Made by a program: the position numbers and the translations under genes. A stretch of DNA of 23,650 nt from a virus. The notes beneath the pieces were generated by a model, which did not search any database, was not told where the DNA came from, and saw nothing but the letters and a program-made list of their open reading frames with translations. The DNA lies in IMG/VR virus record IMGVR_UViG_3300000115_000202, positions 1-23,650 of that record. One strand, written 5' to 3'. This document shows positions 2,291-21,079 of the stretch, piece by piece. Position 1 is the stretch's first letter. Each line of letters begins with the position of its first letter.

Positions 2291-2632
2291 TTAGTTCACC
2301 TCTATTGTTAAGAATAGTTCTAAAGTTTCGGATGCTGTAAATGGGCCGACTCCATCGAAATTGACCCTCGCTATCATCTCGCTACTTGTCTTAAATATGC
2401 CCAACTCTCTTATTACTTTTCCAGTAATGTTGCTACCAGCACAAGTAACTTTTATTTCTAAAACATTTAGATTTGATTTTTCCTTTGCTATTGTTACAGT
2501 TGCTCCGCTAGGCACATCTAAAGTAGTTGACCTAGGGCTAGTTGAGTTTCCACCGTAACCTATTTGTGCGCTAGCGGCTAATGTGCTTTCTATGTAACTA
2601 AGTACTTCTGCTTTCATTTCATCGGTAATCAA
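2291..2632 (-). CDS. Small tail protein before the fibre (fibre-attachment-like)
   Basis: This encodes 113 residues if the start is TTG at 2632, which overlaps the giant gene's stop as TTGA. GGAGG lies 7 bases upstream of this TTG, so I prefer it; an in-frame ATG at 2617 is the alternative. The N-terminus is helical (about residues 1-22) and the rest is beta-rich. The C-terminal half carries 'RELGIF', 'ARVNFDG' and a closing 'LFLTIEVN'. This resembles small phage tail proteins with an 'E-(I/L)-G-(L/I)-F ... ARxxF' pattern that sit next to fibres; I match it by pattern only. Its place between tip protein and fibre suggests a fibre adaptor or tail-tip accessory. The ATG of the next gene follows its TAA by one base, which implies coupled translation. 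Confidence 0.65.
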   Translation of the reverse strand: MITDEMKAEVLSYIESTLAASAQIGYGGNSTSPRSTTLDVPSGATVTIAKEKSNLNVLEIKVTCAGSNITGKVIRELGIFKTSSEMIARVNFDGVGPFTASETLELFLTIEVN

Positions 2633-5600
2633 TATTCTTCCTCCACTAAATTGTCAATCGTTGCACCGCTATTGAATCCCATTGGGGTGGTACTAGTATT
2701 TAGGGCTGCCCCGAATCCTAGAGTCAAGCCGTCTGAGTTTATTCTTCTAACTAAAAGTTTGCTAACTTTAATATCAAGGGAATCTAATATATCAAAGGTT
2801 ATCGCCCTTTCATCAAATTCTTTAGCCCTAATATCTGCGTGTATTTTTTTATTATCTGAAAGTAATTCAGCAAATCTATCCTCCAATTGTTTTGTAAATC
2901 TGCCTAGTTCTAATTTAAGCATACCAGTAAAAGTATGTTCTATTTGTAATACAATGTATTCGTCTAGTTCTATGCCTTCCCTAGTTAGTTCTACATTGAT
3001 TATATCTCCGGCCTGTAATTGACTAATGTTATTATGGCCAACTGTAATATTTAGTCTAACATTGTCAGAGGAATGTAGCCTTAGCAATTCCAGTGCCCTT
3101 TTATTTACTGCCTCTTGAGAAGTTAATTCAGATTCATATACTTCTAGGGTTTTCCTACCTAGTTTGTTTATGCTTCTCAAATCCTTTCTAGAGCCCTTGT
3201 GTACTTTACCATAAACAATCACTTCGTTATAGAAATCAAATACAGATTTAACTTTATTATATTCGTATATTTGGTAGTCTCCATTATCGCTAAGTGTTAC
3301 CTTGGGGTAGTTTAGTTCACTAGTATTATTTACTAATTTAAAAGTAGAATCTGCTATTTCGTATGTTGAGGAAGCAGACGGGTCTTCGATTAAGACCATA
3401 TCTTTTTTAGATAGAATTAAGTTAATTGCAGAAAATAAATCAATCCCCTTATAGTTTGGTGCTAAGAAATATGGGAAGTCGCTATCTTCAGAAGTGAATT
3501 CTATATCATTTGTTTCTAGCAGGTCGTTGATTAAATCAGTACCCTCGTAGCAAATGTCTACAACGCTACCAATCATTCCTCTTTTAGCAGCAGCAGATAC
3601 TTGTCCGTTTACGGTTAGTGTGATAGGTTCACTAATAGATGCTACCCCCAAAGTTTCTTCCATCTTATCAAAGGATAGGAAATGCCCTATATCGTCTCCA
3701 TTATCAGTATAGGTCATAGAAGTCTTGTAAACATTATCTCCATCAGAGACAGCCACCGTTAAGTCACTATTAGGAGTAAGTAAACTTTCCATTTTATCGG
3801 GGAATCTCTGCAAGACCCACTGTGAATCAGACTGGGCATCCATATCTAATGCGACATACATAGAAAGAGCCGCCTCTTTACCTCCTGTGTTATGGAATCT
3901 AGTAAAGGAGCGACCTCCACTTTTATTCCTAACCATATAAGAATTGATTTCGCTAGGGTCATAACAATTATCTTCTCCACTAACTTTAGTGTATGCGGAT
4001 GATAGAGTATTCAACCTAATTTTATTAGGTGAGTGACTATAAAAGCACACATGATTAGGCTGCATTATTCTGTAAAAATCGGTAACTATTGCAGTATCTA
4101 AAGTTAAGATATGTCTTTCAGTAGAATTGGTAGTGTCTATTTCGTGAGAAATTACATACGCTATGACATTAGGAGTTTGTTCGTTTAGTGAAGGAGTGTT
4201 TGCTAATAGACTGGAATATGTTTGGACAGTAAAATTCTCATCGTAGTACTTCCCTTTTTCTGAAACCAAATAACATCCGGTTAAATCATTCATTAATCTT
4301 AGAGATTTTCTATTTATATTAGCGAAGGCTACTGAATCAGCAGTACCCGAAGTGTCATCTTCATCAAAATAAGTTATACTAGTTATATCAGTATCTAAAT
4401 CAATAACATAACTATACACATTTCTATTTCCAGCCGCTTTATTAGTATTGGTTGCAGAAGAAGTAAGATATAAACGGGGCTTGAATCCCAACATTACCCC
4501 ATCTGCATCTTTCGCATATGTTCTATTTGCGTGAGAGCCCACTCCGTCTTCGTGCTCGGCAAAGTCGTTTAGTATTCCCATTCCAACTAGGCAAAACGGG
4601 GTAGAAGAACTTTGGGAACTTCTAAAGGCTATAGAACTAATAGCACCGGCAACGGTTCCCTTTGAAACCAAACTGCCTCCACCTTCTTCAACATCAAACC
4701 GGTCTAAAAATATAGGTAGAAATGGATTATACAAACATTCGTTTCCAGCAGGTGCGCTATTATCGGGCTCGCCCAAACTTCCATGAAACAACTCAAATAG
4801 TTTGAAGGGATGGTCACTAATACCTGATGCAGACTGGCTAGTGTCTCCTAAAATGCTAGCCGCATCAAAATCAATAGGAAGATATGAATTAAATGTTTTA
4901 AATCCATTAATAGTGCCGCCTTGGTCTAGAACTACAGTGTTCTGCCTACTCCAAGCACAGGTTCCGTCACCATAATGTCCAGACCCAACATCATTTACGA
5001 TTATAGACTTCATCATATGTGGTTCCTTTCTAAGTTGGACAAATGTATCTTCCTTTCCATGCCCCCGTATAGTAGAAACCCTACTGGTAGCCGAACCGTC
5101 AGCATTTCTCATAGTTCCTAAAGCATACAAAGTGCCAGCAAAATAAGCCGTACCATTTGTTTTTCTAGCCTTATCCATTAGGACTATTTTCCAACTACCG
5201 CTGCTTCCTTCTGTAGCGGCTACCTCCCCAATATATCTTCCATCGGAATCTGCTATTATTTCTCTCTGCCCTGTTAAGGTATTAGGATTTACAGAAGTAT
5301 CTGTTGCAATATAAGAACCGAAGGTTAGAGTCTGACTACTCTTACTCCCTCCAGTAGTAGAAGAAGATAGTACGAAATGAGTAGCATCGGTAATGCTAGC
5401 AATAGTAGCACCGGTTGGTATTCCATCCCCGCTAACTGGCATTCCTGCTTTTATTGATGTATTAGAAGAATGGGTTATGGTAGTTCCATTATTATAAGAA
5501 CAGCCAGCCACCGTATAATCGTTGTAATCTCCCGTAGCGACTTGAGAAGTACTTGCAAACAAAGTACCTAGAGTATCAAAGTCGAAAGCCGAATACTTGA

Positions 5601-8600
5601 ATTGGGGTAAAACTCTGTCTTTAGAAATTATATTTTCGGGGTCTATTTGATTGAAAGCCCAATCGAAAACTACTTCGGTTAATCTCATTAAAGAAAATCT
5701 CTTTAATTCTGAAATAGTTTTATCGGCAGAGATAATAGAACTAGAAGTGTAATTAGAATCGTTTAATGTTAGTGTATTAGTTTTACCGATGGTACTTTCC
5801 TTAATATCCGAAGAAGAAGTTTCTATAGGGGCTTCCAGTGCAAAGAAATTATAATTAGAAATTTCTCTAGTCTGGCCACTATACATTAGACTGTCCTTTC
5901 GTTCAGAAGAATAAGGATGTAGGTCAGAAGTACTAAAAAGAAACATTCTAGATATCTTATAGTCTAATAAGTCTAAATGGTCTTTGGTAGTAAATACATT
6001 CTCATGAGTACCCGCTACATCTGCCACTGTATTGGTTACGCTTGGGTCGTGAGTAAACAGAGTTCTTGTTAGGGCAACATTTTCTGCTCTTAAATTAGAA
6101 TCGAAAAATCTAGAACCATATACGGAAGTATTTCCTCTAGATTCGGGAAGTAAGTGGGTACTAAAATGCGGAGCAGCATTCTCTCCCGTCTTACCAACTC
6201 CGATAATAGGATAGTCTTCGCTCCAATTCTCTATGTAGTTTCCTAATCCAAATCTATAGGAACTGGCGTAATATGGAACTTTGCTTACGGTTTCTAAATA
6301 ATACTCAGAAACATCTTTTATGTCAGTAGTGCTAGTAGTATTAATTCTATTATAGTTTCCCTTTTCTAAATTTATTATTCTAAAATAAGGAGAACCGTAT
6401 TTTTCAGAATAATAAAACTCTTCAGCCATATCGTCGTAATAGAGTGGGTAATTCATAGACAGGGTTTTGTAGGTGCTGTCTTCATTAACATGGGGACTTA
6501 GCAAAGATATTATTTTTCCAGTATGTAAATGTCCAGCATTTAGTAAAGCCAATTCATGAGTTAGTTTTCCTGTCTCTAAGAAAGTACTCTCTGCTAAAAT
6601 CTGTATGGTGTGAGTGCTAATAGTGGAAGTTAGTTTCCTATCCAAGTAAACATAAATTGTATCGTGGTCTGTATGAAGAGTCACTGTAATGATTTTACCT
6701 AAGAAAACACCGTTGGCATAAACTGGTTTATTATGTAATTTTCTAGGACTAGCAGTAGTAGAAAGTAGGGCATCACTAGTAGTAGTTCCTCCTCCTGCGT
6801 CTTTATCAATTGTAAAATAAGTGTTACCGGAAGTACCTGTAGTGCAAGCCCCTAAATCTGTAAAGGTAGTATCTTGTGTATTTGCAAAATTGATATCTAC
6901 TCTTCCTAAAGTTAGAGGCATATGCGGAGCAATTTCTATTAGTGTTTTTCCATCTGCTTCTTTAGTACTTAGTATAGAAAAGTCAATTAGCGTATTTATG
7001 GTATCGAAGGTTTGGAATGTTTTGCTCGCTGCGTTATCATCTAGCCTTGCTTGGAATGCAGAATCACTTTTTATTCTTACAGTATCACTAAGATAATATC
7101 CCAATGCTCTAGAATCTTGACTTGCAGATGTCCCTACCAAGGTGGCAGATTCAGCACCAGTGCTAGTTAGGCTTTGTCCACTCTCGAAGATTATCCCCTT
7201 ATCGGAAGCCGCAGTTAAGTCAGTACTAGTATTTTGGAATGAGTTAGTAGAAAGTGCCTTGTTGAAAACATAGTGTTTAGAAGTTGCTTCCGCCCCTACT
7301 GCCGCACTCGATGGGCTACTAGTAGGGTCACTTTCTACTAAAGCATAATTTTCTAAAGTGACTCTTGTACTGCTATCAACGGTAGCGATTTTTCCAACAT
7401 AAGAAGTGTTAGCATGGTCTACATGATAAGCATAAACATGAGTGCCAACATCAGCAGTAGCATCAAAGTAATTATCGGAATCAAACTCTACAATTTTGCT
7501 ATTGAAGGAACATGTCAAAAATGGACTACCGGTAATTAATTTTACATTGTTAAAGGGACTATTACTAGAATAAATAATATCTTTAGAATGAAGAGTATTT
7601 TTATTTACAGAAGGTGATAATAATTTACTATAACTATTCCTGCCACTTATCTGTAAAATCCTTTGACCGCTTTCTTGATAGGAGTCTATGGTTTCTATCG
7701 TGCCATTTAGTTTCTCTATCTCTATTTCGTAATCTCCATTAAGCCACTGTAGGCCACTATTAGTCCCAGTGCCATATGTTTTAGTTACGAATTTAACGGT
7801 CATTAATTTTTTATCTACATCTACAGATGTAACATTTAATTTAATATAGCCATAGTCTTTAGAAATAATGTTGATAAAAAGATTATTTATTCTATTGTCT
7901 ACTAATGGGAAATCTGTAAGTATTGTACTGTCCTGTCTATTAAATGCCCTACGGTATAGTTTATCTCCTACGGATATAGTAGGATTAGATGAAACAGAAA
8001 ATAGCCCTGCTACTCCATCTGTCTTATGATATTTATTGGAGCCACTCACTTCTAAAGTCATAGGTTGGCTTGCAGGGGAAGATGCAGTAGCAGCAGTAAA
8101 GGTTCCTATAGAATCTATAATAAACAATACATCTCCAATTTTTATTTCGTCATTAGCATTTAGGAAACTGTTCAAATCGTGAGTAGTAGTAAAAGTGTAA
8201 GTCGGGGAAGATGCCGAAAGAACCTCCACTTCTAAATCAAACCAATCTTCTAAATTAGCCCTGTGTACTTTATGCCTAACTCTATATGGCATATTTTCCG
8301 TAATCTTTTTATTTTGTATTCTGAATAAGTCGGCAATCTTAGTTTCTCCATAGCCTCCTCTTTGTCCATACGATTCATATACGATATTATCATAAACGCC
8401 AAATACTATATTAGCCCTATCGGGAGAATTTCTATAATGTAAGTATCTTTTAGGCCCAGTAAATGCCCAAGTGCTAGACAAGTCGTCGCTGTCTCTTCTT
8501 GCGTTAGGGAATACATCGTCATAGTCAGCCCAATCAGCACTATTCAAACTTAGTCCTTCATTAGAAGTATTAGTATGAGGGTCATCTAAAGTCACTAAAT

Positions 8601-9552
8601 TATCTACTACTTGCGCCTTTAAATTATATTTGCTATAATCTACAATATCTTCTGCGTAGGAAGTAATAGTTGTAAAAGTATGAGTTAATCCAGAATATAA
8701 ATTAATTGCACCATTAGTATTAGTAGTTTGGCAATGGGAATAGTATTTGGTGCTATGATTCAATTGTCCATCTTTATCCATGTACTCATCAAAGAAATAA
8801 AATAAAGGTCTAGAACAAAATAGTTCATATTGCAAATTCATTTTTATTCCTGCTGAAACTACAAGAGGGTAAGTGTCTTTAGCAGGGCCTCTGAATAACA
8901 TAAATTTAGTGCCCTTTGTTATTTCTGTTCCTAGCCTTGGCTCAAATTCAAATGAGTCTCCTGCTGTATCGTCAGAAGTAACTTGAGTTACTCTAGCAAA
9001 ATGGTGTTTGTTATGGTCGTCAGAATGTAATAATATGAAGTAGTGGTAGTTTGTAAAATCGGCATCGCTATAGTTAGAAGTAGCATCAATTAATTTGACT
9101 CCTTCATCAGTAGCAGAATCGTAGCATTTTATTTTATATCCCTCTGTATTTGCTAGGTTCTGCCTTTCTGTATTAGCAGTGCTAGTACCTACTTCATCAA
9201 TAGTTAGTGCGGTGTTGCTATCATCGGGAAATATTGCAGTGTAAAGTCTATCTGTAGAAGATAGGGTTTTTACTATATTTATGTGGGGATTTGTAGGAAC
9301 TTGGTAGTTAGTAGAAGTAAATTTAAATGAACTTGCGTTTCCTGTAGTAGCCTGAGATAAAGTTATTTGGCTACTGCTATCAAAACTCTTCATGAAGGTG
9401 TTGTCCGGTATATTAGTTCCAGTAACTAGCATACCTGCCTGTAAGTTAGTTGTGGATATGCCTGTAACAGTGGCGGTGGAATTGGCTGTCCCCGACTTAA
9501 TTAAATTAGTATATTTGCCTTCGTTAGTCAGTACTACTATTCTATCACTCAT
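2629..9552 (-). CDS. Giant tail-tip protein with C-terminal hub/Tal-like region
   Basis: At 2307 residues this is the largest gene here. It starts at ATG 9552 with GAGGAGG upstream and overlaps the LamG gene as ATGA. The first 2000 residues are mostly beta-predicted, Ser/Thr/Asp/Asn-rich, with two 'TGxxIP' modules (residues about 22-80 and 1350-1411) and several strand motifs of type (Y/F)-(V/L/I)-G-(K/E)-(I/V). The last 350 or so residues look different: 'NEVIVYGK' (about 2110), a helix with 'EAVNKRALELL', 'QLQAGDIINVEL', 'YIVLQIEHTF' and 'LKLELGRF'. That order is typical of the phage baseplate hub / tail-associated lysin (gp27-like, Tal) family. A final segment (about 2230-2307) is helix followed by a Gly-rich tail. 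I see no peptidase or lysozyme motif. Inferred role: central tail tip and host contact. Confidence 0.75.
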   Translation of the reverse strand: MSDRIVVLTNEGKYTNLIKSGTANSTATVTGISTTNLQAGMLVTGTNIPDNTFMKSFDSSSQITLSQATTGNASSFKFTSTNYQVPTNPHINIVKTLSSTDRLYTAIFPDDSNTALTIDEVGTSTANTERQNLANTEGYKIKCYDSATDEGVKLIDATSNYSDADFTNYHYFILLHSDDHNKHHFARVTQVTSDDTAGDSFEFEPRLGTEITKGTKFMLFRGPAKDTYPLVVSAGIKMNLQYELFCSRPLFYFFDEYMDKDGQLNHSTKYYSHCQTTNTNGAINLYSGLTHTFTTITSYAEDIVDYSKYNLKAQVVDNLVTLDDPHTNTSNEGLSLNSADWADYDDVFPNARRDSDDLSSTWAFTGPKRYLHYRNSPDRANIVFGVYDNIVYESYGQRGGYGETKIADLFRIQNKKITENMPYRVRHKVHRANLEDWFDLEVEVLSASSPTYTFTTTHDLNSFLNANDEIKIGDVLFIIDSIGTFTAATASSPASQPMTLEVSGSNKYHKTDGVAGLFSVSSNPTISVGDKLYRRAFNRQDSTILTDFPLVDNRINNLFINIISKDYGYIKLNVTSVDVDKKLMTVKFVTKTYGTGTNSGLQWLNGDYEIEIEKLNGTIETIDSYQESGQRILQISGRNSYSKLLSPSVNKNTLHSKDIIYSSNSPFNNVKLITGSPFLTCSFNSKIVEFDSDNYFDATADVGTHVYAYHVDHANTSYVGKIATVDSSTRVTLENYALVESDPTSSPSSAAVGAEATSKHYVFNKALSTNSFQNTSTDLTAASDKGIIFESGQSLTSTGAESATLVGTSASQDSRALGYYLSDTVRIKSDSAFQARLDDNAASKTFQTFDTINTLIDFSILSTKEADGKTLIEIAPHMPLTLGRVDINFANTQDTTFTDLGACTTGTSGNTYFTIDKDAGGGTTTSDALLSTTASPRKLHNKPVYANGVFLGKIITVTLHTDHDTIYVYLDRKLTSTISTHTIQILAESTFLETGKLTHELALLNAGHLHTGKIISLLSPHVNEDSTYKTLSMNYPLYYDDMAEEFYYSEKYGSPYFRIINLEKGNYNRINTTSTTDIKDVSEYYLETVSKVPYYASSYRFGLGNYIENWSEDYPIIGVGKTGENAAPHFSTHLLPESRGNTSVYGSRFFDSNLRAENVALTRTLFTHDPSVTNTVADVAGTHENVFTTKDHLDLLDYKISRMFLFSTSDLHPYSSERKDSLMYSGQTREISNYNFFALEAPIETSSSDIKESTIGKTNTLTLNDSNYTSSSIISADKTISELKRFSLMRLTEVVFDWAFNQIDPENIISKDRVLPQFKYSAFDFDTLGTLFASTSQVATGDYNDYTVAGCSYNNGTTITHSSNTSIKAGMPVSGDGIPTGATIASITDATHFVLSSSTTGGSKSSQTLTFGSYIATDTSVNPNTLTGQREIIADSDGRYIGEVAATEGSSGSWKIVLMDKARKTNGTAYFAGTLYALGTMRNADGSATSRVSTIRGHGKEDTFVQLRKEPHMMKSIIVNDVGSGHYGDGTCAWSRQNTVVLDQGGTINGFKTFNSYLPIDFDAASILGDTSQSASGISDHPFKLFELFHGSLGEPDNSAPAGNECLYNPFLPIFLDRFDVEEGGGSLVSKGTVAGAISSIAFRSSQSSSTPFCLVGMGILNDFAEHEDGVGSHANRTYAKDADGVMLGFKPRLYLTSSATNTNKAAGNRNVYSYVIDLDTDITSITYFDEDDTSGTADSVAFANINRKSLRLMNDLTGCYLVSEKGKYYDENFTVQTYSSLLANTPSLNEQTPNVIAYVISHEIDTTNSTERHILTLDTAIVTDFYRIMQPNHVCFYSHSPNKIRLNTLSSAYTKVSGEDNCYDPSEINSYMVRNKSGGRSFTRFHNTGGKEAALSMYVALDMDAQSDSQWVLQRFPDKMESLLTPNSDLTVAVSDGDNVYKTSMTYTDNGDDIGHFLSFDKMEETLGVASISEPITLTVNGQVSAAAKRGMIGSVVDICYEGTDLINDLLETNDIEFTSEDSDFPYFLAPNYKGIDLFSAINLILSKKDMVLIEDPSASSTYEIADSTFKLVNNTSELNYPKVTLSDNGDYQIYEYNKVKSVFDFYNEVIVYGKVHKGSRKDLRSINKLGRKTLEVYESELTSQEAVNKRALELLRLHSSDNVRLNITVGHNNISQLQAGDIINVELTREGIELDEYIVLQIEHTFTGMLKLELGRFTKQLEDRFAELLSDNKKIHADIRAKEFDERAITFDILDSLDIKVSKLLVRRINSDGLTLGFGAALNTSTTPMGFNSGATIDNLVEEEY
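5320..5505 (-). repeat. 'TGTGIP' beta module, second copy in tip protein
   Basis: About 62 codons with 'AGMPVSGDGIPTGATI' followed by 'FVLSSSTTG' and 'QTLTF'. It aligns by eye with 9313-9489 in the same protein and 700-864 in the fibre. Confidence 0.6.
9313..9489 (-). repeat. 'TGTGIP' beta module, first copy in tip protein
   Basis: About 59 codons near the N-terminus with 'AGMLVTGTNIPDNT' followed by 'ITLSQATTG' and 'FKFTS'. It shares the spacing and key Gly/Ile-Pro residues of the copies at 5320-5505 and 700-864. Confidence 0.55.
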
Positions 9553-18484: not shown

Positions 18485-19135
18485 TCACATTAGCCACTTA
18501 GCCCAAGCAGCACCTTTCTGAATTGCAGTACCTAGTCCTAAACCTGCTTGCGGCGGCTCATATGACATTTGTCCCTGTGCATCTAACCAATATGGGCGAC
18601 CATACATGTCCTGTCCACTAGGAGGAACTGGATATCCACTTCCGTTATTAGCAGCACCTTGCATCTGTTGGAATTGTTGGGTTTGTCCTGTCAATCCCGC
18701 AATTGCCATTCCCGCAGATGGTTGTTGTCCTCCGCCGAATCCTTGAGATTCTAAAAATTGGGACTTGGCCATCTTTCTTTGATTGATGACTTCTGAATCA
18801 ATAGCAGAATTCAATAGATTAAGAATATCCAACTCTATGTTTTCAGCAGTAATCTTTTCATATTCTCTAAGAGCATCGGGGTGTATTCTAATAGTACCAG
18901 TGGTATTATCTTGAACAAACTGTAGTTTAGTTAGCATTTGGCTAACTACCCTTTCGGTTACATCTTCCATGAGTTTTTCTAATGACTTTAGGAATTTATC
19001 TCCATGATATTGGAAAAACTCCTCTACATGATTATCTTGCAAAGAAAGTAAATTATTTACATTCTTGAATTGTTGGTCACTTTGTTGTTGCACTGCTCCT
19101 AAAACAGTACCGTTACTGGTTCCTAGTATTCCCAT
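18485..19135 (-). CDS. Helical protein with Gln/Gly/Pro-rich tail
   Basis: 216 residues from ATG 19135, behind GAGGAATGA. The N-terminal 125 residues are helical and charged ('HVEEFFQYHGDKFLKSLEKL' and following), suggesting a coiled-coil. From about residue 130 the sequence becomes low-complexity, with Gln, Gly, Ala, Pro and Met ('GFGGGQQPSAG', 'QTQQFQQMQGA'), and it ends with a short amphipathic helix 'AIQKGAAWAKWLM'. There is no family match that I know. The terminal helix with Trp and Met could touch membrane or a partner protein. It lies two bases after the zinc-site gene and belongs to the GTPase block by spacing. Confidence 0.75.
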   Translation of the reverse strand: MGILGTSNGTVLGAVQQQSDQQFKNVNNLLSLQDNHVEEFFQYHGDKFLKSLEKLMEDVTERVVSQMLTKLQFVQDNTTGTIRIHPDALREYEKITAENIELDILNLLNSAIDSEVINQRKMAKSQFLESQGFGGGQQPSAGMAIAGLTGQTQQFQQMQGAANNGSGYPVPPSGQDMYGRPYWLDAQGQMSYEPPQAGLGLGTAIQKGAAWAKWLM

Positions 19136-19138
19136 TCT

Positions 19139-19780
19139 TCATTCCTCCGCTTCTACTGTCACACCTTGTTTAATCATTAAATGATTCAATCTATCTGTCA
19201 GAATATTTATTTCTCCAACGATAGTAATTGCTTCATGAGTAGCCGACTTATTATCTCCTAATGTGGGTGGTTTAATAAGCCATCCGGCAGAAATTAAACT
19301 ACTAACATCTTCCTTGCTTAGTGTATTTAGTGGGCCTCTTTTAATCATCTTAGGCATTTTTGGAATAAAGGCTTTGAATTCTAGGCCATGCTGTTCTGCT
19401 AGAATCTGCTGCTGTAGCATCTCCATTTGTCTATGTATTCCGGAATGTTTAGGACAATATGTTCCTCGCATTGGCCTACCTTTAGTCACTTGGGTTAAGG
19501 GAATTGGTGGCCTCATGTAATCTCCACTATCCCATGTATGGTGCATTCCGCAAACTACACAACGGTCTTTTAGATTAAACTTGTAACTGTATTTAATTTT
19601 TAGAAAAGATTTCCTTTCCGGTGCTAAAACCTTAACTAATTCTTTCAATTGCTTCTTGGGTTTTATATTGACGCATTTGTATTCTTCTACAGGCCCACTT
19701 GCTCTTGCTCTTTGCATCGGTGGCAAAAATGCCGATGGTGCAGTTGTATTCATTTGTCCTATTATATTTTGTTGAAACAT
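19139..19780 (-). CDS. Putative zinc-binding protein after the GTPase gene
   Basis: 213 residues from ATG 19780. An upstream in-frame TTG (19789) overlaps the GTPase stop as TTGA and is the alternative start, but the nearest AGGA is too close to it. A Cys-Val-Val-Cys-Gly-Met-His-His segment (residues 74-81) and a Tyr-Cys-Pro-Lys-His segment (108-112) supply C74, C77, C109 and H112, a plausible structural zinc site. A helix rich in Gln/Met follows ('RQMEMLQQQILAEQ'), then a basic segment and a helical C-terminus. The N-terminus is disordered-looking. The function is unknown. The close junction with the GTPase gene makes an adaptor or regulator for the GTPase an attractive but unproven reading. 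Confidence 0.72.
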   Translation of the reverse strand: MFQQNIIGQMNTTAPSAFLPPMQRARASGPVEEYKCVNIKPKKQLKELVKVLAPERKSFLKIKYSYKFNLKDRCVVCGMHHTWDSGDYMRPPIPLTQVTKGRPMRGTYCPKHSGIHRQMEMLQQQILAEQHGLEFKAFIPKMPKMIKRGPLNTLSKEDVSSLISAGWLIKPPTLGDNKSATHEAITIVGEINILTDRLNHLMIKQGVTVEAEE

Positions 19781-19785
19781 TCTAA

Positions 19786-20448
19786 TCAATAATCCTTTAA
19801 CATTGTAGTTACGCCTAGGTAGACCATTTCCGGTTGGGATTTAGCCGACACGATGTATTTGAAAGTTGGTATGCCCTTATCATTTAACCTTTGCATTCCA
19901 TATTTAAAAGGCTCGAATATAGGATGGTCTTGAATCTCTCCGTCGTGACTATATTTTTTTCCCCAAATATCATATTTATTCGCCCACATTCCTACCGCTA
20001 TAGGGTAGTCGGGTTCCTTTTTCTTTTTTCCATTGGGCCAAGTATTAGCACAAACGGCATCCACTAAAAACTTCCAAGCGAGTTGATGGTCTAGGTTAGC
20101 CCCGCTATCTAGATGTCTATGGTCAATCATAAAAATAATATATTTGACCTTTCTTCTTTTCATGTCGGCAATCCATTCTTTCCAATAGAAAGATTCTCCT
20201 CCAACATCTGCTGACTTTAGGGTATGGGTTTCTCCCTCGACCTTTATTGTTTTTCTAGTACCTTTGTGTAAGCCCACTGTTCTTTTTTTAATATCGGGTA
20301 CTTCCCCTCTAGTTCTAAGTTGATGGTTTAAAGTAGTTTTACCTACCATTGTTGCACCATAAATGCCAAACGGAATAGCATGTATTCTTTTGTAAAATGC
20401 TATCGCCGCTTCAGTAATTACAATTGCGAAACCTGCGAGTACTGACAC
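19786..20448 (-). CDS. Membrane-anchored Arf/SR-beta-like small GTPase
   Basis: 220 residues from GTG 20448, chosen because GGTGG sits six bases upstream and the previous stop ends two bases before. A longer frame starts at ATG 20502 but overlaps the upstream gene by 52 bases. Residues 2-20 form a membrane helix followed by Lys/Arg, so the G domain should face the cytoplasm. All five G motifs are present: P-loop GATMVGKTT (31-39), switch I 'TVG' with T57, 'DVGGE' (81-85), 'NKYD' (157-160), 'SAK' (201-203). T-x-G and D-V-G-G are typical of Arf, Sar and SR-beta rather than Ras; the usual Gln after DVGG is Glu. There is an insertion with a Lys run before 'NKYD'. A small GTPase is not a standard part of a tailed virus structural operon. 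Expected to bind and hydrolyse GTP at the membrane; what it regulates is unknown. Confidence 0.85.
   Translation of the reverse strand: MSVLAGFAIVITEAAIAFYKRIHAIPFGIYGATMVGKTTLNHQLRTRGEVPDIKKRTVGLHKGTRKTIKVEGETHTLKSADVGGESFYWKEWIADMKRRKVKYIIFMIDHRHLDSGANLDHQLAWKFLVDAVCANTWPNGKKKKEPDYPIAVGMWANKYDIWGKKYSHDGEIQDHPIFEPFKYGMQRLNDKGIPTFKYIVSAKSQPEMVYLGVTTMLKDY
20332..20358 (-). other. P-loop (G1 motif) of the GTPase
   Basis: These nine codons encode GATMVGKTT, matching G-x(4)-G-K-(S/T). The other motifs at fitting distances make this a GTPase rather than a packaging ATPase. Confidence 0.9.
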
Positions 20449-20450
20449 AT

Positions 20451-20672
20451 TCAACCACCAAGAGTATGTGACCATGCGGATTGTAAACCATCTAAGCACC
20501 ATCCTAATATGTTAATATCAAATACTCCTAATATATTCCCAATTAGAAATGACGCTAACGCCGCACAACTTCCCCAAAAATAGGCTCTAAATCTTAGAAA
20601 CCAAATATCAGCAGAATGCGCTCTCTGCAAATCATACGCCATTGCGCCTTCATCAAAGCCAGTAAAAACCAT
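20451..20672 (-). CDS. Small membrane protein before the GTPase
   Basis: 73 residues from ATG 20672. The first 28 residues are soluble-looking; residues about 30-51 ('AYFWGSCAALASFLIGNILG' core) are a membrane helix; the rest ('ILGWCLDGLQSAW') is amphipathic. Its 3' end encodes Leu-Gly-Gly-stop, and this GGTGG is also the ribosome-binding site of the GTPase gene. Its own Shine-Dalgarno and start codon lie in a short hairpin (20671-20687). No family recognised. A holin-like role is possible for any small membrane protein, but the link to the GTPase gene suggests a partner or anchor instead. Confidence 0.7.
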   Translation of the reverse strand: MVFTGFDEGAMAYDLQRAHSADIWFLRFRAYFWGSCAALASFLIGNILGVFDINILGWCLDGLQSAWSHTLGG

Positions 20673-20687
20673 GAGGATTCACCTCAT
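20671..20687 (-). promoter_or_regulatory. Start-site hairpin of the small membrane protein gene
   Basis: The minus strand reads ATGAGG-TGAAT-CCTCAT, a perfect 6-pair stem with a 5-base loop. The 5' arm holds the upstream gene's TGA stop and most of the GAGGTG ribosome-binding site; the 3' arm runs into the start codon (CCTCATG). A ribosome ending translation of the 131-residue gene would open the stem, so this looks like coupling that makes the second gene depend on the first. Confidence 0.5.
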
Positions 20688-21079
20688 CTTTCGATAGCGG
20701 CTAAGAATTCATTTCCTACGCCTTCTGTTTCTATGGTAGAAATCATAGCAGGGGATGAACCGAAATTAGTATTATGCTTATTCATAGTCTCTCGTATCTT
20801 TCCCTTCTGTTCTTCTTCCTTTCTCTTCTGATGCCAAAAATGATTTACTCTTCTTTCTAGTAGATACATTTCTATCTTTTCGTTTAGTGCTAAATCAAAT
20901 ACTGCCTTTAGTATCATAATAGCCCCAACGGTAATTAGGCCAAATAGTGCCGAGTGTGCTAAGGTAGTATATGGGAAATCAATCCCATAATTAGCGTAAA
21001 AAAATACATTCGCTCCGCTTACAGTCCCTACAAAAAGGATAGTCATAACTAGTCGTGTGTCGTGTTCTAATGCTGGCAT
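20684..21079 (-). CDS. Two-helix membrane protein with charged C-terminus
   Basis: 131 residues from ATG 21079 behind TGAGGT. Hydrophobic segments at about 10-28 and 40-62 are joined by a short Tyr/Asn/Gly loop. Residues 66-100 are highly charged ('EKIEMYLLERRVNHFWHQKRKEEE' in two segments) and likely helical or coiled-coil; by the positive-inside rule both ends would face the cytoplasm. The remainder is polar with a final short helix. No family recognised. It opens the block with the second membrane protein, the GTPase and the zinc-site protein, so a membrane complex of these products is a reasonable hypothesis. A holin is the main alternative; its place among structural genes and lack of an adjacent endolysin argue against that. 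Confidence 0.75.
   Translation of the reverse strand: MPALEHDTRLVMTILFVGTVSGANVFFYANYGIDFPYTTLAHSALFGLITVGAIMILKAVFDLALNEKIEMYLLERRVNHFWHQKRKEEEQKGKIRETMNKHNTNFGSSPAMISTIETEGVGNEFLAAIER

Follow-up and report, generated by a model that had tools for sequence, protein, structure and literature searches.

The virus stretch analysed here (the window, 23,650 bases of the IMG/VR virus record IMGVR_UViG_3300000115_000202) encodes a Ras/Arf-like GTPase, probably membrane-associated, within a block of five genes, and a block of the same order recurs in a distant virus group at another place in the genome. That the five genes stay together while their location shifts is our main ground for supposing that they act together. 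We propose that their products form a late membrane-bound GTPase complex which serves virion assembly or egress. We put the probability of this reading at roughly one half. Somewhat more tentatively, we suggest that a whole order of abundant tailed viruses uses a membrane-bound, GTP-switched machine for morphogenesis or egress, a five-protein module with no known tailed-virus counterpart, and that the GTPase of this module forms a deep lineage of its own in the Ras superfamily, possibly a neighbour of Arf. In eukaryotes, small GTPases of the Ras/Arf type organise membranes, and Asgard archaea have them too; the assembly of tailed archaeal viruses at the archaeal membrane, or their exit through it, is poorly known. 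If the proposal is true, a constant gene of this type would mean that a tailed virus exploits the host membrane in a novel manner. The genes of the block and the elements of the GTPase, with residue numbers of the 220-aa protein, are:

20684..21079, minus strand: TM131, block gene 1, two predicted transmembrane helices and a charged C-terminal part
20451..20672, minus strand: TM73, block gene 2, small membrane protein; an AHSAD segment is conserved in the relatives shown
19786..20448, minus strand: membrane-associated Ras/Arf-like GTPase, 220 aa, GTG start, recognised by motifs, predicted fold and homologues
20383..20442, minus strand: N-terminal hydrophobic helix of the GTPase, residues 3-22
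20332..20358, minus strand: G1/P-loop GATMVGKTT, residues 31-39, from the sequence
20272..20283, minus strand: G2/switch I RTVG, residues 56-59, from the sequence
20194..20208, minus strand: G3/switch II DVGGE, residues 81-85, from the sequence
19969..19980, minus strand: G4 NKYD, residues 157-160, from the sequence
19837..19848, minus strand: G5 SAKS, residues 201-204, from the sequence
19139..19789, minus strand: p216C, Cys/His protein, likely zinc-binding, overlapping the GTPase stop; homologue of C317 of the distant group
18485..19135, minus strand: p216, C-terminal part rich in Gln and Gly; probably homologous to Q204 of the distant group

The ORF caller had chosen an ATG at 20502 as start of the GTPase. 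The GTG at 20448, proposed in a preliminary description made from the sequence, is the better start, because the upstream gene stops at 20451 and homologues carry a start-like codon at the equivalent site (ATG 131, TTG 17 and GTG 16 in 164 distinct homologues, rows without such a codon at the site having been removed beforehand). The five G motifs, the T-x-G switch I and the DVGG switch II pointed out in the same description were all found, and each is conserved in at least 142 of 144 distinct homologues, at least two of which are truncated: the G1 pattern GxxxxGK[ST], D-x-G-G and NKxD occur in all 144, R-T-x-G in 143 and SAK[ST] in 142. The gene is under strong purifying selection, with a median dN/dS of 0.058 and a 95th percentile of 0.130 (459 equal-length pairs, dS < 1.5). 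Its median pairwise identity of 0.668 is the highest of 12 morphogenesis proteins and is followed closely by the capsid protein with 0.650 (78 of 144 loci), in a ranking of loci that were fetched via the GTPase and hence biased in its favour. A further stretch, W-x2-W-x2-D-x3-R in the switch II helix (residues 89-99, alignment A4), is invariant in 26 sequences from both virus groups and may be a partner-binding face.

The structural setting assigned to the gene earlier could be confirmed: capsid, tape measure and tail proteins of a tailed virus were recognised, and the GTPase lies between capsid and adaptor genes in the order capsid, p119, p133, p108, TM131 (two-TM), TM73 (small TM), GTPase, p216C (zinc), p216 (Gln-rich), adaptor. 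Within 236 loci from GTPase-led searches, among which contigs recur between searches and misses were not individually checked, TM73 was detected in 234, TM131 in 230, p216C in 220 and p216 in 210, and none of the 25 commonest patterns listed violates the capsid-to-adaptor order. The search was repeated with the capsid protein of a relative, for which the best 80 of 568 loci were taken and 19 of the 80 set aside as too short. GTPase, TM131, TM73 and p216C were present in 61 of the 61 remaining loci and p216 in 60, so that the same gene does occur in related viral contigs, as had been suggested for checking; the query came from a GTPase-bearing virus, which makes this a test within the group. 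A single GTPase copy was found in 28 of 29 long contigs (21 of the 29 reached via the GTPase gene). The preliminary description had thus seen the GTPase correctly and overlooked that the gene belongs to a block of five, that it is constant, and that it lies outside the head-tail operon in the distant group. TM131 gave no credible match in family searches. A roadblock (MglB-type) regulator was over the cut-off in none of 21 contigs, some possibly fragments, with one weak match, and neither a GAP nor an exchange factor was identified.

The distant group, here called A type, has PolB as a single frame and a strong TCP1/Cpn60 match in 8 of 8 contigs each and is probably clade A, Apasviridae. Near its capsid gene, HMMs for the GTPase, TM131, TM73, p216C and p216 gave no match in 80 loci, which had been selected through the capsid protein, HVTV-1 serving as lead, and of which 61 reached the adaptor gene. 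The apparent absence of the GTPase from the group was overturned by a search of whole contigs, in which a distant homologue was found elsewhere in seven of eight. The eighth contig (G016) is also without C317 and a 555-aa gene; about 13 kb separate its capsid gene from the contig end, while in another A-type contig (G015) the GTPase gene is about 23 kb upstream of the capsid gene, and the GTPase gene of G016 may simply have been cut off. In G015 the GTPase gene precedes the terminase gene by about 8 kb on the same strand, and portal, protease and capsid genes come after the terminase. Both arrangements seen fall in the morphogenesis half of the genome.

The A-type order TM176 (two-TM), TM86 (one-TM), GTPase, C317, Q204 was present in 79 of 80 loci, and a further search, whose contigs overlap with those of the first, recovered all five genes in 72 of 80. 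Comparison of the window-type and A-type GTPase profiles gave 99.9% (E 7.9e-37). For p216C and C317 the value was 96% (E 4.3e-9), and representatives share a GRxMRGTYCPxH segment; p216 and Q204, at 57.7% (E 1e-4), are probable homologues. These two pairs alone stand out among 88 other profile pairs, the next best of which reached 5.6%. TM131 and TM73 are equated with TM176 and TM86 on order and topology only, because profile comparison detected no homology between them (0.2-0.3%). Taken together, the block is a unit of its own, and its link with assembly is one of neighbourhood only, since the distant block sits outside the head operon.

Another P-loop enzyme at the position of the GTPase, which had been named as a finding that would speak against the GTPase reading, did not turn up: the capsid-adaptor interval of the distant group contains four small ORFs with a bare P-loop pattern, for which no other G motifs were noted (61 loci). 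A 97-aa zinc-ribbon protein of the same interval (RCxxCG...W...C..C) was detected in 64 of 80 A-type loci and in 57 of 57 with known adaptor place; as a counterpart of p216C it was rejected, with a probability of 14% in profile comparison, in favour of C317. A 60-aa AbrB/MazE-like gene (e.g., L400:8493-8675; Pfam MazE_antitoxin E 0.0014, under cut-off) lies between the GTPase and C317 genes in 59 of 80 A-type loci. About 5 kb from an A-type GTPase, an HMG-CoA lyase-like gene was observed (L395:13312-14154, minus strand; PF00682, E 3.4e-19); such a gene has been noted in aoguangvirids (PMC10768690).

The location of the block also bears on the strongest competing explanation, in which the five proteins, as minor components of the virion, would be inserted into the host membrane at DNA delivery, with the GTPase becoming active on its first contact with cytoplasmic GTP. 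The block genes stand among head genes in the window's type, three of the products have predicted membrane helices, and in composition, though only in that, the Gln/Gly-rich tail of p216 is reminiscent of internal head proteins. A GTP switch that faces the cytoplasm would be hard to deliver before entry, however, and the A-type block is not part of the head operon. We therefore regard an entry device as rather unlikely, though it is the best of the alternatives.

For a late complex as we propose it, the virus-encoded small GTPase, perhaps Arf-like, would be held by its N-terminal helix at the inner face of the host membrane. Its partners would be the two small membrane proteins TM131 and TM73 and two soluble proteins of the same block, the zinc protein p216C and the Gln-rich p216. 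The GTP form would recruit or release a soluble partner at the membrane, and GTP hydrolysis would reset the switch. Such a complex would act late, most likely in placing or timing virion assembly, or release, at the cell membrane. The analysis establishes the motifs, the predicted fold, the purifying selection, the gene order and the occurrence throughout the group, whereas GTP binding and hydrolysis, topology within the cell, formation of a complex, its timing and the step it serves are inferred. The five-gene block is a defined, expressible protein set for tests of this scheme.

The N-terminal membrane helix, already noted in the preliminary description, is predicted in the window GTPase with a best 18-residue hydropathy of 2.04. 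Of 164 homologues, 162 have an N-terminal hydropathy of 1.2 or more and 92 one of 1.6 or more, so that the strict, usual value of a transmembrane span is reached by only 92 of 164, and the corresponding A-type region is far less hydrophobic (mean 0.50 vs 1.50). Glu13 within the helix is present without exception in the 164 homologues, which belong to the window's and the second GTPase-bearing type. These homologues have a mean of 2.0 Lys or Arg residues at positions 17-26 and of 0 at positions 1-12, a distribution which suggests that the G domain is on the cytoplasmic side. In the AlphaFold2 model the helix passes almost straight into strand 1; given this closeness and the modest hydropathy, it possibly lies in the plane of the membrane rather than spanning it. 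We read it as a docking helix for the membrane or a membrane protein.

Other genes bear on the host of the virus. For the window capsid protein, 11 phage records gave matches, led by haloviruses of the HCTV-1/HVTV-1 type (22-26% identity); a capsid protein related to that of Druskaviridae is a trait of Magrovirales. PolB and Cpn60 were read in longer relatives, the window being too short: PolB occurs in 13 of 14 longer relative contigs, in 12 as two separate frames, and Cpn60 divides the window's type (8 of 8 contigs) from a second GTPase-bearing type (0 of 7). Magrovirales have their own PolB, and within them Aoguangviridae a two-part PolB together with GroEL (PMC10768690). By these traits the window virus fits the Magrovirales (magroviruses), tailed viruses of marine Poseidoniales, with a tentative placement at family level; the Poseidoniales host rests on the literature. 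The archaeal host proposed earlier is thus supported by the haloarchaeal-like capsid protein and by the PolB and chaperonin features of magroviruses, and the step by which it had been reached, from the host range of Arf-type GTPases, is weak in itself. Magroviruses are reported to be ubiquitous in the surface ocean (PMC10160649). On the minus strand the window also encodes a 2307-aa tail-region protein with no Pfam match at E <= 1 (2629-9552) and a further ORF of 763 aa or more, which by eye resembles a tail fibre gene and continues past the window end (1-2289).

Searches for the gene elsewhere were made with tblastn in 50,697 phage records, which detects close relatives only; two matches at E 8 were returned for the window GTPase and none at E <= 1 for the A-type GTPase. 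Pfam MMR_HSR1 gave no match over cut-off in 26 records and missed known GTPases too, so this search is uninformative. A genome scan, likewise restricted to close relatives, found two contigs of a Maricaulis bin. A Maricaulis genome bin with three contigs carrying the viral GTPase gene was noted as well (L157, L158), and the Maricaulis-bin contigs are most likely mis-binned virus DNA. No paper joining 'magrovirus' and 'GTPase' was found in the literature covered, and a prior annotation of the gene in the main magrovirus papers Philosof 2017, Zhou 2023 or Prabhu 2025 is possible. The term 'GTPase' is absent from PMC8651126, PMC5332604, PMC5628999, PMC7318539 and the accessible part of PMC10160649, and its single mention in PMC6563490 concerns EF-2.

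The residue after DVGG (position 85) is Glu in the window GTPase, from which slow or partner-dependent hydrolysis had been suggested as possible. This suggestion is weak, because Glu and Gln interchange naturally at the position (136 and 28 of 164 homologues). The Gln rows are nested within the GTPase tree and require one to three changes (12 Gln in 145 rows), and the distant group (n = 71) has Gln in 37, Glu in 20, Asp in 8 and His in 2, with D-x-G-G absent in 4. Judged from these sequences, Glu85 is not a fixed loss. For Ras with Glu at this position (Q61E), two papers give an increased intrinsic activity (PMC10515638) and one-eighth of the wild-type rate (PMC6813200), respectively. With these reports in conflict, the hydrolysis rate of the viral GTPase is not predictable from Glu85. 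The natural Gln, Glu, Asp and His variants form a ready-made series for studies of GTP hydrolysis. The same variability, and a residue other than Gly at the equivalent of Ras Gly12, would also suit a slow or non-hydrolysing GTP-binding scaffold, a structural clamp and not a switch. P-loop, NKxD and the Gly of switch II are conserved, however, and Arf proteins also have no Gly12 and yet hydrolyse GTP with GAPs, so we consider such a scaffold unlikely.

The identity of the product as a small GTPase is secure, and a structure without a Ras-like fold, the other finding that would have spoken against it, did not appear. AlphaFold2 models of medium confidence show strands and helices arranged in the Ras order, both in the first run (mean pLDDT 76.4, pTM 0.78; five models 53-76) and with a wider alignment (pLDDT 74.3, pTM 0.76; five models 71-74), and are least certain at the P-loop end and in the stretch before switch I. 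Foldseek against the PDB ranked Rab1b first (4i1o, E 6.8e-9, probability 1.00), and the 50 best matches listed, with TM-scores of about 0.5-0.7, comprise 49 Rab/Ras proteins and one G-alpha chain. When Foldseek's 1000 best chains were re-aligned with VIA-align 2, Arf/Arl proteins took the first 30 rows (Z 16.4 to 15.3), led by Arl1 (4dcn, Z 16.4, rmsd 2.5, 162 residues), followed by a mimivirus Rab as best Rab (15.0) and G-alpha (14.4); Asgard chains scored 15.3 (8oum) and 15.0 (8ouk). With the second model the leading proteins did not change, and Rag (15.1) and G-alpha (15.0) came closer behind, from rank 13. Of the Arf-type label given earlier, the VIA-align 2 order is in favour and the Foldseek order, led by Rab, against; because the two methods differ in this way, kinship with Arf is plausible, not settled.

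Pfam matches of the single window GTPase remained under cut-off (E 0.006-0.017). A profile of both virus groups' GTPases matched Rab33B best (E 5.1e-5), then 8oun (E 1.3e-4), an entry named 'GTP-binding protein' which we take, going by its entry series, to be an Asgard Arf. PF00025 gave no match at E <= 0.1 for the window GTPase and matched 14 of 55 members, best 3.8e-5. The W-D-x-G-G-Q switch II of Arf is matched in D-x-G-G, while the Trp is absent and Glu stands for Gln in the window GTPase; residue 2 is Ser, and the N-terminal helix is hydrophobic (moment 0.18) instead of an amphipathic helix myristoylated at Gly2. As defining features of Arf and of SR-beta were looked for and not found, the GTPase is assigned to neither.

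This placement also weighs on the idea of a takeover of host membrane traffic or protein targeting, by an SR-beta-like receptor which redirects co-translational insertion or host membrane proteins. The topology of an N-terminal hydrophobic helix and a G domain would fit, and Pfam SRPRB (PF09439) matches 46 of 55 members at E <= 0.1, best 8.1e-5. The window GTPase reaches only 15.1 bits against a cut-off of 25, however, its switch II is DxGG, a form not known from SR-beta, and no SR-alpha-like partner was recognised in the block; we judge this reading slightly less likely still than a scaffold. Superinfection exclusion, also raised earlier, or a role in membrane defence has a predicted membrane location and small genes in its favour and is very improbable, because exclusion genes usually come and go and the GTPase gene is so invariant, being as conserved as the capsid protein, single in nearly all long contigs and present in all capsid-chosen loci with enough sequence; PADLOC gave no match for five products.

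Compared with known systems, the viral GTPase shares with Arf/Arl proteins, including Asgard ArfR, the top rank in VIA-align 2, the T-x-G switch I and the D-x-G-G switch II, and in 71 of 71 distant-group members also the G5 motif A-T-x-x-G. It differs by an identity of only 14-20% in these alignments, by its fixed gene block, by SAK at G5 in the window member, and by the switch II and helix features given above. Rab proteins come first in Foldseek and in the profile search, but have a D-T-A-G switch II and a C-terminal lipid anchor, in contrast to the D-x-G-G and N-terminal anchor of the virus. With SRPRB the window GTPase shares a predicted N-terminal membrane helix ahead of the G domain, weak in the distant group, and differs in switch II and in its score under the Pfam cut-off. 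MglA is a prokaryotic protein of Ras-like fold; its roadblock (MglB-type) partner had no counterpart over the cut-off in the 21 viral contigs. Virus-encoded Ras-like folds are further known from BFVD, where 49 of the 50 best matches listed came from large DNA viruses of eukaryotes and one was unnamed; these are mostly annotated as Rab, Ras or Ran types and their hosts are eukaryotic. The head operon of HVTV-1 (Druskaviridae) has a related capsid protein (23% identity) and, by eye, a membrane protein, gp124, between capsid and adaptor genes, but the A4 profile found no GTPase in its 102 kb genome. By analogy, the viral protein may resemble Arf or SR-beta in its working, as a small GTPase held at a membrane.
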